64,000 bases of DNA, taken from NCBI GenBank assembly GCA_025937835.1, contig JAICQO010000004.1, positions 62,001 to 126,000 on the forward strand, read 5' to 3'. Shown one piece after another: positions 40,520 to 47,423 of this stretch (position 1 is its first letter; each line of letters opens with the position of its first letter). The position numbers and the translations under genes are program-made. Source of the stretch: Polyangiaceae bacterium (lineage in GTDB: Bacteria; Myxococcota_A; Polyangia; Polyangiales; Polyangiaceae). The notes under the pieces were generated by a model. The model worked only from the letters and a program-made list of their open reading frames with translations, did not search any database and was not told the DNA's origin.

Positions 40520-41323
40520 ATGGACAAGGCGTCAGTCATCGGTCTCGGCCTCGGTCTCGGCGCAATCCTCGGCGGAAACGCGCTCGAGGGCGGTCACCTC
40601 TCGTCGCTGCTGCAGCCGACCGCGGCGATGATCGTGATCGGCGGCACGCTCGGCGCGACGTTGATCGGCTTCCCGCTCTCGACATTCGTCACCGCTTGCA
40701 AAGCCTTCAAGGACGTCTTCCTCGGTGGCAAAGAGAACGACACCGGCGCGCTGATCCAGGAAATCACCGGTTTTGCGCTGAAGGCCCGGCGCGACGGCAT
40801 CCTGTCCCTCGAAGATCAGCTGCCGGACGTGAAGCATCCGTTCCTGCGACGCGCGCTGGTGATGGCCGTGGACGGCCTCGACTCCAAGTCGATGCGCGAG
40901 AACCTCGAGGGCATGCTCGATCGCCTCGACGAAGAGGGCGAGCTGCCGGCCAAGGTCTGGGAGTCCGCGGGCGGCTACGCGCCCACGATCGGCATCATCG
41001 GCGCCGTGATGGGCCTGATTCACGTGATGCAGAACCTGTCCGACGTCGGCGCGGTCGGCGCCGGCATCGCCGTCGCGTTCGTCGCGACGATCTACGGCGT
41101 CGGCCTGGCGAACCTGGTGTTCCTGCCCGCCGCCGGCAAGCTCAAGCTCCACCACAAGAGCGAGATCGCTCGGCTGAACCTGATGATGGAAGGCGCCCTG
41201 GCCATCCAAGAAGGCCAGAACCCGAACCTGATCGCCGAAAAGCTCTCGAACCTCGGCGCGTCCGAGGAGTCGAGCAAGAAGGGCGACGGAGCTCCGCGCG
41301 GTGTCCCGGCGGAGGCGCGCTGA
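40520..41323 (+). CDS. motA: Flagellar stator protein MotA
   Basis: 267 residues, four TMs. GLGLGLGAILGGNALEGG, cytoplasmic loop with charged residues (ARRDGILSLEDQLPDVKHPFLRRALVMAVDG), and conserved prolines in the C-terminal TMs (GGYAPTIGIIGAVMGLIHVM, ATIYGVGLANLVFLPAAGKLK). GAGGAG ribosome-binding site. Confidence 0.96.
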   Translation: MDKASVIGLGLGLGAILGGNALEGGHLSSLLQPTAAMIVIGGTLGATLIGFPLSTFVTACKAFKDVFLGGKENDTGALIQEITGFALKARRDGILSLEDQLPDVKHPFLRRALVMAVDGLDSKSMRENLEGMLDRLDEEGELPAKVWESAGGYAPTIGIIGAVMGLIHVMQNLSDVGAVGAGIAVAFVATIYGVGLANLVFLPAAGKLKLHHKSEIARLNLMMEGALAIQEGQNPNLIAEKLSNLGASEESSKKGDGAPRGVPAEAR

Positions 41324-41327
41324 AATC

Positions 41328-42155
41328 GTGGCGAGAAAGCGAAAGCACCCAGAGCACGTCAACCACGAACGCTGGCTCGTCTCCTACGCCGACTTCATCA
41401 CCCTGCTGTTCGCGTTCTTCGTCGTCATGTTCGCGGTGTCGCAGGTCGACACCAACAAGGTGGGCCGGTTCTCGGAGTCGGTGCGCGCGGCTTCGAAATG
41501 GCAACTCTTCGACGATCAAGCCACCGCCCCGGTCAGCCCGATCAACAAGACGATCGGCAACGATAGCGAGACGATCGTGCTCGAGGACCAGAAGCAGCAG
41601 GGCCGCGATCTTGCGATTCTGATCAAGGAGATCCTGCAAGAGAGCATGGCCAGCGGTCGCATGAGCGTGATCAAGGGCCCCGACGGCGTGATCATCCGGC
41701 TCAACGACACCGCCTATTTTCCGTCCGGTCAGGCGGCTCTCCGCGCCGATCACCTGAAGGATCTCGAGGCGCTCGCGAAGATGCTGTTGCGGCTGCCGAA
41801 CCACGTCAGAATCGAGGGCCACACCGATCCCCGCCCGATCGCGACCGCGATTTTCCCGTCGAATTGGGAGCTCTCGGCGGCGCGCGCCGCCTCGATGCTG
41901 CGCTTCCTGTCTTCGGCCGGCGTGCCGGAAGAGCGCCTCGCGATCGTGGGCTACGCCGACCGCCGGCCGATCGTCAGCAACGAAACCGAGGACGGTCGCA
42001 AAAAGAACCGGCGGGTAGACATCGTGCTCCTGCGCGCGCCGACCGATCCCGCGCCTGCCCCCGACACGCAATCCGAGACCGAGACGGCGCCCGAGCCCGA
42101 GTCAGAACCAGCGCCGAAGCCCCGACCGGCCGCTGCGCCCGCGAAGGCCCGGTAG
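41328..42155 (+). CDS. motB: Flagellar stator protein MotB
   Basis: 275 residues. Single TM with the proton-binding Asp22 (SYADFITLLFAFFVVMFAVS), then an OmpA-like peptidoglycan-binding domain (NHVRIEGHTDPRPI, SAARAASMLRFLSSAGVPEERL, NRRVDIVLL) and an acidic Pro/Glu tail. GTG at 41328 with GGAGG upstream is chosen over an overlapping ATG-less extension. Proton rather than sodium type is not decided from sequence. Confidence 0.95.
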   Translation: MARKRKHPEHVNHERWLVSYADFITLLFAFFVVMFAVSQVDTNKVGRFSESVRAASKWQLFDDQATAPVSPINKTIGNDSETIVLEDQKQQGRDLAILIKEILQESMASGRMSVIKGPDGVIIRLNDTAYFPSGQAALRADHLKDLEALAKMLLRLPNHVRIEGHTDPRPIATAIFPSNWELSAARAASMLRFLSSAGVPEERLAIVGYADRRPIVSNETEDGRKKNRRVDIVLLRAPTDPAPAPDTQSETETAPEPESEPAPKPRPAAAPAKAR

Positions 42156-45368: not shown

Positions 45369-47423
45369 ATGTCGGCTCGGAAATCAAAGAAATCGCTTAG
45401 GAAACCTGCTGCGAAGCCGGCTCGGAAGGGCCGCGCCTCGAGCAAGCGCCCTGCTCGCTCCCCGGCCAAGGCGTCGAAGAAGAAAGCTTCTACGACCGCC
45501 CGGCCGGCTCGTGCTGCCAAAAAGGCGCCCCCCAAGGCGGCCAAGAAGGTAGCCAAGGTAGCCAAAGCAGCCCAGAAGAAGGCGCAGGCCCAGAAGCAGA
45601 AGCTCGAGAAGCAGAAGAAGCTCCTCGCGCAGAAGGCCAAGGAGCAAGCGCAGCGCGACAAGGCACGGGCCAAGGCCGAGCTCGAAAAGCAACGCGAGAA
45701 AGAGCGCGCCGCCCGGGAGAAGGCCAAGGCCCTCGCCGAGAAGGAACGCGAAAAGCAGCGCGTCGCCAAGGAGAAGGCCAAAGCCCTCGCCGAGAAGGAG
45801 CGTGAGCGCCAGCGCGTCCTCAAAGAGAAGGAAAAGGCGCGCCTCGAGAAGGAGCGCGAGAAGCAGCGCCTGCTCAAGGAAAAGGAGAAGGCCCGCGAGC
45901 AGCAGGAAAAGGAGCGCGCCAAGGCCGCCGCCCTGAAGGCCCGCGAGGAAGAGCGCGAGCGCAAGAAGAAGGAAGCCGCCGACGAGCGCGCCCGCAAGAT
46001 CCAGGAGCGCGACGCGGCTCGCGAAGCAGCGCGCAAGCAGAAGGAAGAAGAGCGCGCGCGACGTGATGCCGAGCGCGAGGCCTACCGCAAGGCGAAAGAG
46101 GCCGAGCGCGAGCGGCTGCGCGCCGAGCGCGAAGCGGCGCGACGCGCCCTCGAGGGCAAGGTCGCCCGAGCCAGCAAGCGCCTCGCGAAAGACGGCTCGA
46201 GCCGCGGCGGTGCTTCGAACCGCGTCTATCGGCCGGATGCGATCCCGAATCAGTCGGGTACCACGCGCCGCACGACGGATGCCGTGTTCCGCCCGCTCGG
46301 CGTGCGCCCGATCGTCGTCTCCCCGCTCTCGAGCGAAGAGCTCGCCCACGCGGATCTATCGGCGCCGCCCGGCAATCCGGACCACGTGCGTCCGACTCCC
46401 CCGCCCCCCGTGCCGCTCAGCGTGGAGGAGCGCTACCAGTCGATCACCGAGCGGCTCGGCCGCGCCGACGCCGCGTTCCAGCGGGAATACCGCGAGAACT
46501 TCGACATGTCGTGGATCTACCACGACAGCGCGCTCGAAGGCGTCGTCTACACCTTCCAGGAGCTCAAGGCCGCGGTGGATCCTTCGGTCCCGATCGTGCC
46601 GGATTCCAGCCTGCAGCCCGCCTGCGAAGAGATCCGTCGCCATCGCGCGGCGATCGAGCTGGTGCGCGACCTGGCCGAGCGCAAGCGTGTCCCGATCAAC
46701 GTGGACATGGTGAAGAAGCTCTACGTCACCCTCCATCCGGAAGAGGGCGACGTGAAGACGGTCAAGTACCGGAAGGACATCCCCCAGCACCGGCTGTACT
46801 TCCACGAGTACGTTCCGCCCGACAAGATCGCCTACCGCGTGCGGCAGATCGTCGACTGGCTGAACGGGCCGGAGCCCAAGAAGATGAAGAACCCGCTGCG
46901 CGTCGCGGCGCGGGTTCACTACGACCTGGTGCGCGTGTTCCCGTTCCAGACGGACAGCGGCAAGGTCTCGCGCCTGTTGATGAACCTGATCTTGATGCGC
47001 TCGGGTTACCCACCCGCCATCATCCACTCGACCGAGCGCCAGAAGTACTACGAGGCGCTCAAGGGTCAGCTCCCGATCATCATCAACATGACGCTCGATG
47101 CGATCTCGAACGCTCTCGCCAGCATCGAGAAGCACCTCGACGAGCACGAGACGCGCTCCAAATCCGGAGGTGCCGCCTCGACGGCCACCCCGTCCGCGCC
47201 GGGAACGCCGGCCGCCGCGCAGGCCGCGGGCCCCGAGGTATCGGACGTCCCCGACGAGCCGGACGCCGCTCGCGACACGGACGACGAGGACGACTCCGAC
47301 GACCTAGCCGCAACCGCGGACAACTCGGACACTTCGGACACTTCGGACACCGCCGAGCCCGCAGACGATGCGGACGACGCGGACGCGCCGGACAGCTCCG
47401 ACACGCCCGAAGCCTCGGAATAG
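45369..47423 (+). CDS. Coiled-coil protein with degenerate Fic domain (pseudo-Fic)
   Basis: 684 residues. Residues 1-90 Lys/Ala-rich; 90-290 a highly charged Lys/Glu/Arg coiled coil; about 370-600 a Fic fold: inhibition-like motif SALEG with Glu390, a flap (HEYVPPDKIAYRVRQIVDWL), and the helix VHYDLVRVFPF through RLLMNLILMRSGYPPAII, very like human FICD and other Fic AMPylases around the active site. The catalytic motif HPFxDGNGR reads FPFQTDSGK: His is Phe524 and the Asp, Gly, Asn and Arg positions are changed. An acidic Asp/Ser/Ala tail follows. Catalysis as an AMPylase is therefore unlikely. Upstream M at 45294 is out of family. Confidence 0.82.
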   Translation: MSARKSKKSLRKPAAKPARKGRASSKRPARSPAKASKKKASTTARPARAAKKAPPKAAKKVAKVAKAAQKKAQAQKQKLEKQKKLLAQKAKEQAQRDKARAKAELEKQREKERAAREKAKALAEKEREKQRVAKEKAKALAEKERERQRVLKEKEKARLEKEREKQRLLKEKEKAREQQEKERAKAAALKAREEERERKKKEAADERARKIQERDAAREAARKQKEEERARRDAEREAYRKAKEAERERLRAEREAARRALEGKVARASKRLAKDGSSRGGASNRVYRPDAIPNQSGTTRRTTDAVFRPLGVRPIVVSPLSSEELAHADLSAPPGNPDHVRPTPPPPVPLSVEERYQSITERLGRADAAFQREYRENFDMSWIYHDSALEGVVYTFQELKAAVDPSVPIVPDSSLQPACEEIRRHRAAIELVRDLAERKRVPINVDMVKKLYVTLHPEEGDVKTVKYRKDIPQHRLYFHEYVPPDKIAYRVRQIVDWLNGPEPKKMKNPLRVAARVHYDLVRVFPFQTDSGKVSRLLMNLILMRSGYPPAIIHSTERQKYYEALKGQLPIIINMTLDAISNALASIEKHLDEHETRSKSGGAASTATPSAPGTPAAAQAAGPEVSDVPDEPDAARDTDDEDDSDDLAATADNSDTSDTSDTAEPADDADDADAPDSSDTPEASE

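Follow-up and report, generated by a model that had tools for sequence, protein, structure and literature searches.

Fic proteins are known as patchily distributed toxins, effectors and AMPylases, and several proteins combine the Fic fold with an altered catalytic motif and a presumed or demonstrated function other than AMPylation: Doc, AnkX, BepC, C. fetus Fic2 and AvrB. The motif His is retained in Doc, AnkX, Fic2 and BepC; in AvrB the motif is missing, but this protein is a plant-pathogen effector. To our knowledge, none of these proteins is a class-wide single-copy core gene product. Fic proteins with degenerated motifs have been considered likely to have new functions, as in the phosphocholination catalysed by AnkX and the kinase activity of Doc (PMC3667792). 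C. fetus Fic2 has a degenerate motif and yet still requires its His (PMC5651007), and Doc clade D2 is a natural clade in which the catalytic His has changed to Gln (Khater and Mohanty 2015, PMC4454073). In canonical Fics the gatekeeper Glu pairs with the motif arginine R2, displacing the gamma-phosphate (PMC3667792, PMC12974487).

The window analysed here, a 64,000-nt stretch of DNA from a Polyangiaceae bacterium, carries a gene for a 684-aa protein that we refer to as pseudo-Fic (Table 1). The open reading frame is real and its frame is correct; the ATG at 45369 is backed by the relatives, the N-termini of which read Met followed by a basic stretch. This is the sole Fic-family match in the 6.9-Mb draft genome. 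Upstream of the Fic core, the linker motif RVYRPDAIPNQSGTTRR has its Y, IPNQ and GT invariant in 13 near relatives.

Table 1. Layout of the pseudo-Fic gene, in window coordinates, with the evidence for each feature.
Feature	Coordinates	Strand	Evidence
Complete CDS, 684-aa pseudo-Fic	45369..47423	+	ORF, Pfam match, start of relatives
Disordered Lys/Ala/Pro-rich basic tail, residues 1-58, length varying among relatives	45369..45542	+	Composition, AlphaFold2
One continuous, highly charged single alpha-helix (predicted), residues 59-272	45543..46184	+	a/d composition, AlphaFold2
Mostly low-confidence linker carrying motif RVYRPDAIPNQSGTTRR, residues 273-348	46185..46412	+	Alignment of relatives, AlphaFold2
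Fic-fold core, residues 349-601, common to the whole pseudo-Fic family	46413..47171	+	Pfam, AlphaFold2, FICD match
Inhibitory-helix equivalent WIYHDSALEG, residues 382-391	46512..46541	+	Residue scoring over homologues
YRKDIPQHRLYFHE at the Fic flap position, residues 467-480	46767..46808	+	Alignment
Former catalytic motif FPFQTDSGKVSR, residues 524-535	46938..46973	+	Homologue comparison
ERQKYYEAL, aligned with the FICD segment after the active-site helix, residues 556-564	47034..47060	+	FICD alignment
Disordered acidic tail, closest relatives only, residues 602-684	47172..47420	+	Composition, AlphaFold2

In good agreement with the preliminary description of this locus, which had called the C-terminal half Fic-like, residues 443-542 match Pfam PF02661 (Fic) at 39.8 bits (E 8e-10; cut-off 24), and the AlphaFold2 model of the core, computed with 65 relatives in the input, reaches a pLDDT of 91.8 and a pTM of 0.90. 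The best solved structures for the core are those of FICD (Z 26.6, rmsd 2.5 over 237 residues, 24% identity), and a sequence-profile comparison likewise matches FICD with an E value of 2.7e-27. Profile and predicted fold thus class the window protein among the Fic-domain proteins, whereas its motif sets it apart from the Fic AMPylases.

The canonical HPFx(D/E)GNGRxxR motif is replaced in the window protein by FPFQTDSGKVSR (F524-P-F-Q-T-D-S-G-K-V-S-R535), in which Pro, Gly and R2 (Arg535) are retained and the His, the acid, the Asn and R1 are missing. The earlier reading, according to which the His and the phosphate and metal contacts are gone, is borne out. The altered motif is also conserved in homologues, a check that the same description had proposed: all 80 named loci read [FY]PFxxDSG[KTR]xxR, and in a set of 75 sequences covering the class and the phylum an aromatic residue (F, Y or W) takes the place of the general-base His in 73, the two exceptions being His in L037 and Ser in L040. 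The GN.R part of the motif occurs in none of the 75. In L037 (genome G054) the remainder of the canonical motif is missing around the His (HPFARHSGKLAR). Divergent pseudo-Fics from the phylum outside Polyangia read, for example, FPFDERTGVVGR, YPFRRNPGTTAR, WPFDMRSGTAGR and WPFEKHSAAVAR. Close relatives with an intact motif had been named as the sign of decay or of a sequencing error; HxFx(D/E)GNGR is absent from every one of the ~155 homologous sequences inspected (partly overlapping sets). Since the general-base position is rarely His in the homologues, the site has evidently ceased to need one, and with the residues of the normal chemistry missing from the protein and its homologues alike, pseudo-Fic would not be expected to AMPylate in the usual way, as had been suggested.

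The rest of the pocket is strongly constrained. The gatekeeper Glu390 is kept in 73 of 74 homologues (one has Asp) and is followed by a retained Gly391; Arg468, shared with canonical Fics, is present in 74/74, and Arg535, Arg557 and Tyr560 are each present in 75/75. His517 in the preceding helix, Pro525, Gly531 and Leu564 are likewise retained as in canonical Fics, and position 561 is Tyr or Phe across the homologues, Tyr561 being the residue shared with canonical Fics. The segment following the active site is, as proposed, Fic-like, with Arg557, Tyr560, Tyr561 and Leu564 all as in canonical Fics. Alongside these stand new near-invariant residues: Trp382 (70/74) and His385 (72/74), both specific to the pseudo-Fic family, as well as Tyr477 (74/75) and Asn539 (73/75). 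The inhibitory motif, previously described as surviving in the form SALEG, has survived in part: its Glu and Gly are kept, but at the -4 position, where the canonical (S/T)xxxE(G/N) motif has Ser or Thr, pseudo-Fic has Asp386, and this position is Asp or Glu in 74/74 homologues.

In the flap region the sequence, by contrast with the earlier claim, is not that of canonical Fics. The usual flap sequence is absent throughout, and its place is taken by a different conserved sequence, YRKDIPQHRLYFHEY, for which neither AlphaFold model shows beta-hairpin strands (local confidence there is only ~52-72). Within Polyangia the segment is nearly fixed as YRKDxPxHRLYFHE, including a conserved HR..FHE; Arg468 and Tyr477 are near-invariant phylum-wide, whereas the His and Arg residues of the segment are not kept outside Polyangia and family f36. 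Taken as a whole, the residue pattern read from the alignments is that of a constrained ligand pocket stripped of its former chemistry.

Compared with FICD/HYPE and class II Fic AMPylases (PDB 6i7g, 6i7h, 3cuc), with which the fold is common, pseudo-Fic shares the Glu and Gly of the inhibitory helix, R2, the Arg at the start of the flap and the Arg/Tyr/Tyr/Leu set after the active-site helix. Unlike these proteins, it has no catalytic His, acid, Asn or R1, carries Asp/Glu for Ser/Thr at -4, and is encoded by a vertically inherited core gene; it also differs from FICD in its flap sequence, for which a hairpin is not predicted (in a region of low model confidence), and in having no TPR or membrane part. 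AvrB is a structural match as well, at Z 12.2. Doc clade D2 resembles pseudo-Fic in having lost the catalytic His, but these Doc proteins retain the acid, Asn, Lys and Arg (Qx[FY]x[DE][GV]NKR), whereas the pseudo-Fic motif is wholly replaced in a class II Fic-like fold.

The window protein had been described as bearing a 200-residue Lys/Glu/Arg coiled coil. We reject this assignment for residues 59-272, since even in the best heptad register just 11% of a/d positions are hydrophobic (versus 7% elsewhere) and AlphaFold2 predicts one unbroken helix (pLDDT mostly 52-83); after it the model places the linker, then the Fic core, and finally a tail without order. Residues 1-85 have a net charge of +32; in residues 86-280, charged side chains make up 61% and large hydrophobic ones just 9%, and residues of opposite charge are over-represented at spacings i+3 and i+1. 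Composition and model together identify this 214-residue segment as a predicted charged single alpha-helix. A 54-bp tandem repeat (4.2 copies, 45668-45894) lies within the DNA encoding it, which would fit helix growth through repeat expansion; helix length differs greatly among relatives.

The N-terminal extension ranges from 4 to 593 residues in relatives and is usually strongly basic, the basic tail reaching a net charge of up to ~+130 in Polyangiaceae. The acidic tail (residues 596-684, net -24) is limited to the closest relatives. Many members of the order are proteins of ~217-330 aa with the same Fic core and little or no N-terminal extension. As far as the alignments indicate, the charged extension is a late, lineage-specific addition, and neither it nor the acidic tail defines the family. 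Given that the core is kept with little or no extension in much of the order, the conserved job sits in the ~220 residues of the core, and the earlier proposal of a structural or nucleic-acid-linked role, which was read from the charged helix and the acidic tail, is not supported, as many relatives have these parts in a short form or lack them.

Among Polyangia genomes that are at least 90% complete, 207 of 212 have the gene, representing 120 of 122 genera (A2 profile, E <= 1e-20); it is nearly always a single copy and is retained even in a 1.6-Mb Polyangia genome. An initial search of relatives had found homologues in 55/59, with core identities of 43-74% and a few detected through weaker Fic matches only. 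The 80 named loci, from among 248 relatives in a contig profile search, include Sorangium, Polyangium, Minicystis and Labilithrix, names from which the class was taken to be Polyangia and the phylum Myxococcota, and all 80 bear myxobacterial or deltaproteobacterial titles. In an even sample of the wider phylum, 112 of 282 genomes matched at E <= 1e-10, some of the weakest matches being canonical Fics; elsewhere in the phylum the pseudo-Fic takes a divergent form. Our search of plasmids and phages yielded only Fic-family matches, the best plasmid rows carrying plain Fic annotations and no more than ~31% identity.

Canonical class II Fics (IHPFVDGNGR) occur as separate, patchy genes in some of the genomes that bear pseudo-Fic, and the window's genome has none. 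In a careful tree all pseudo-Fics fall on one side of a single branch (branch support 98/98), apart from the canonical Fics of the same genomes, once L221 is set aside, a canonical Fic whose frame is broken. The same single branch is recovered with the motif masked (SH-aLRT 99; computed without L221 and four long or partial rows). Note that these trees include only 6-9 canonical rows, all from the same phylum, and that their root is not fixed. One origin of the changed active site is the simplest reading of these sequences. By its distribution and phylogeny pseudo-Fic is an ancient, vertically inherited, single-copy Fic-fold family, and with catalytic residues lost clade-wide from a strongly constrained fold it is, at the level of sequence, a conserved pseudoenzyme family.

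The surroundings of the gene vary among lineages, and pseudo-Fic is fused to no other domain. In the window a gene for a type I methionine aminopeptidase precedes it, and a TolC-type gene runs towards it from the other side; we rejected both as partners, the pairing being confined to the window's own family. The exception to this variability is a stand-alone ribA (GTP cyclohydrolase II). A comparison of the positions of the two profiles places it next to pseudo-Fic, in the same orientation, in 36 genomes belonging to four families: 15/18 in f26, 4/4 in f54, at least four in f34 (all those checked by position), and 13/15 in f16, a Polyangia family. The neighbour was identified as RibA by NCBIfam subfamily PRK00393 and TIGR00505, both above cut-off. 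In f16 the candidate starts of ribA lie ~2-30 nt past the pseudo-Fic stop or overlap it, and ribA lies directly downstream both in this family (L188, L189, L215, L252-L261) and in f26/f34/f54 (L194, L196, L198, L199, L202-L210). In G272 it is upstream of pseudo-Fic instead, which indicates that the gene pair outlived a local rearrangement. Genomes of 4-13 Mb have two or three PF00925 matches each, so chance adjacency should be rare. As f26, f54 and f34 share an ancestor, the ribA link is independently supported by two deep lineages.

In most Polyangia families, including that of the window, ribA is not adjacent. The window's genome (G000) has its own stand-alone RibA on another contig, C139; its contig C125 has another PF00925 match, of lower score, within a ~400-aa frame, and the same pair occurs in many relatives. 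Two f16 genomes (G271, G364) keep pseudo-Fic and have no stand-alone ribA. Rfam searches at gathering scores found no FMN riboswitch near the pseudo-Fic/ribA pairs.

Further neighbourhoods were noted by eye, each restricted to one lineage. In f36/f47, where ribA is not adjacent, a branched-chain aminotransferase-like gene lies just upstream on the same strand at three of six loci (L192, L201, L213); in f13-f20 (L183, L186, L189, L191) pseudo-Fic is divergent from rsmH-ftsL-ftsI-like genes, the start of the cell-division cluster; and DUF4390-like/NtrY-like genes are neighbours in order families f2-f12. Within the window itself, MotA- and MotB/OmpA-type genes stand side by side at 40520-42152, upstream of the pseudo-Fic region. 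An Rfam match to 6S RNA at L210:10609-10799 is unrelated to pseudo-Fic.

The swapped set of conserved residues, the single-copy conservation and the ribA neighbour together suggest that pseudo-Fic probably has a housekeeping job different from AMPylation. Our preferred, still tentative, explanation is that it binds a ligand and does not AMPylate, its most likely role being that of a regulatory partner within flavin/GTP metabolism that acts on RibA. The AMPylation machinery would have been lost in a single event close to the base of the Myxococcota lineages sampled, and the pocket rebuilt; presumably closed by a Glu390-Arg535 salt bridge, this pocket may, with no AMPylation taking place, accept a ligand resembling a nucleotide or a flavin, and the outcome would be a ligand-responsive regulatory action, most likely on GTP cyclohydrolase II. 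GFRP and GTP cyclohydrolase I offer an analogy only: the likeness lies in the proposed role of a small regulatory partner of a GTP cyclohydrolase, GFRP having a fold other than Fic and GTP cyclohydrolase I as its partner. In the window's lineage, the basic tail and the long helix could perhaps anchor pseudo-Fic to a polyanion such as nucleic acid. Nearly as likely as a ligand-binding regulator, though doubtful in its own right, is a repurposed enzyme, with the pocket rebuilt around His385/Asp386/Glu390, Arg468, Tyr477 and Arg535 for another reaction on a small molecule or a protein; a phosphohydrolase or a transferase acting in the flavin pathway would be an example. The new near-invariant His, Asp/Glu and Tyr phylum-wide, the H-R-x-Y-x-H of Polyangia, the core-gene status and the operon-like ribA link in f16 are all consistent with such a conversion. 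However, only Polyangia and f36 keep the flap His and Arg residues, which leaves the phylum as a whole short of a complete new catalytic set. New activities have been ascribed to Fic-fold proteins whose active centre deviates (PMC3667792), and the ARAPDP phosphatase is unassigned in many bacteria (PMC12051542).

The preliminary description had offered a binding scaffold or an unrelated enzyme. The Glu/Arg gate and the new near-invariant residues speak against a bare scaffold and favour either the binding of a ligand or a new reaction; a protein-interaction scaffold in which the charged helix and acidic tail do the work on a passive Fic platform seems unlikely to us, despite the large charged extensions and the continuous helix in Polyangiaceae, since the extension is short or missing in many relatives while the core keeps 46-74% identity across the order, and a passive platform leaves the pocket residues unexplained. 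Slightly less credible again is a binder or eraser of AMPylated proteins in which Glu390 is kept to position a hydrolytic water, as in FICD-type deAMPylation. It would account for the invariant Glu/Arg2 pair and for FICD being the closest solved structure, and both FICD and EfFic require the gatekeeper Glu in order to deAMPylate (PMC8373988). Yet FICD's general acid His363 and its Mg2+ site (PMC8373988) are both lost in pseudo-Fic, which makes this chemistry less likely, and canonical Fics, the potential suppliers of substrate, occur only patchily among these genomes, the window's own having none. The loss of the catalytic motif is also what one would see after decay, after an error in sequencing, or in a toxin-antitoxin Fic surviving as an inactive remnant. 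Class-wide conservation rules out the first two, and with a single branch in the tree, presence in a 1.6-Mb genome and no conserved small antitoxin gene found beside pseudo-Fic across the loci compared, we regard this whole group of explanations as extremely improbable. A Fic/Doc toxin-antitoxin module was rejected on the same lack of a conserved small partner and on a distribution (207/212 genomes) that is not patchy.

Degenerate-motif Fics are already known; this class-wide family with the whole motif replaced is undescribed in the literature searched, which covered few subscription journals and yielded no paper on such a Fic protein in Myxococcota or on a Fic associated with ribA. Annotation pipelines would probably label pseudo-Fic simply as a Fic family protein. 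What the family presents is a Fic fold that has become a vertically inherited core gene of a whole class, its chemistry removed and new conserved residues in its place. It is conceivable, if rather doubtful, that a single early conversion in Myxococcota turned an ancestral Fic AMPylase into a dedicated, near-essential component of flavin synthesis, either a regulatory subunit of GTP cyclohydrolase II that senses nucleotides or flavins or a rebuilt enzyme. If the ribA link is functional, the Fic fold would gain a role in vitamin metabolism that lends itself to a concrete test by binding and kinetics, and a role in flavin synthesis, if true, would be a use of the fold absent from the literature searched. 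The pseudo-Fic family also constitutes a natural experiment in the retention of the Glu/Arg gate after the loss of catalysis.
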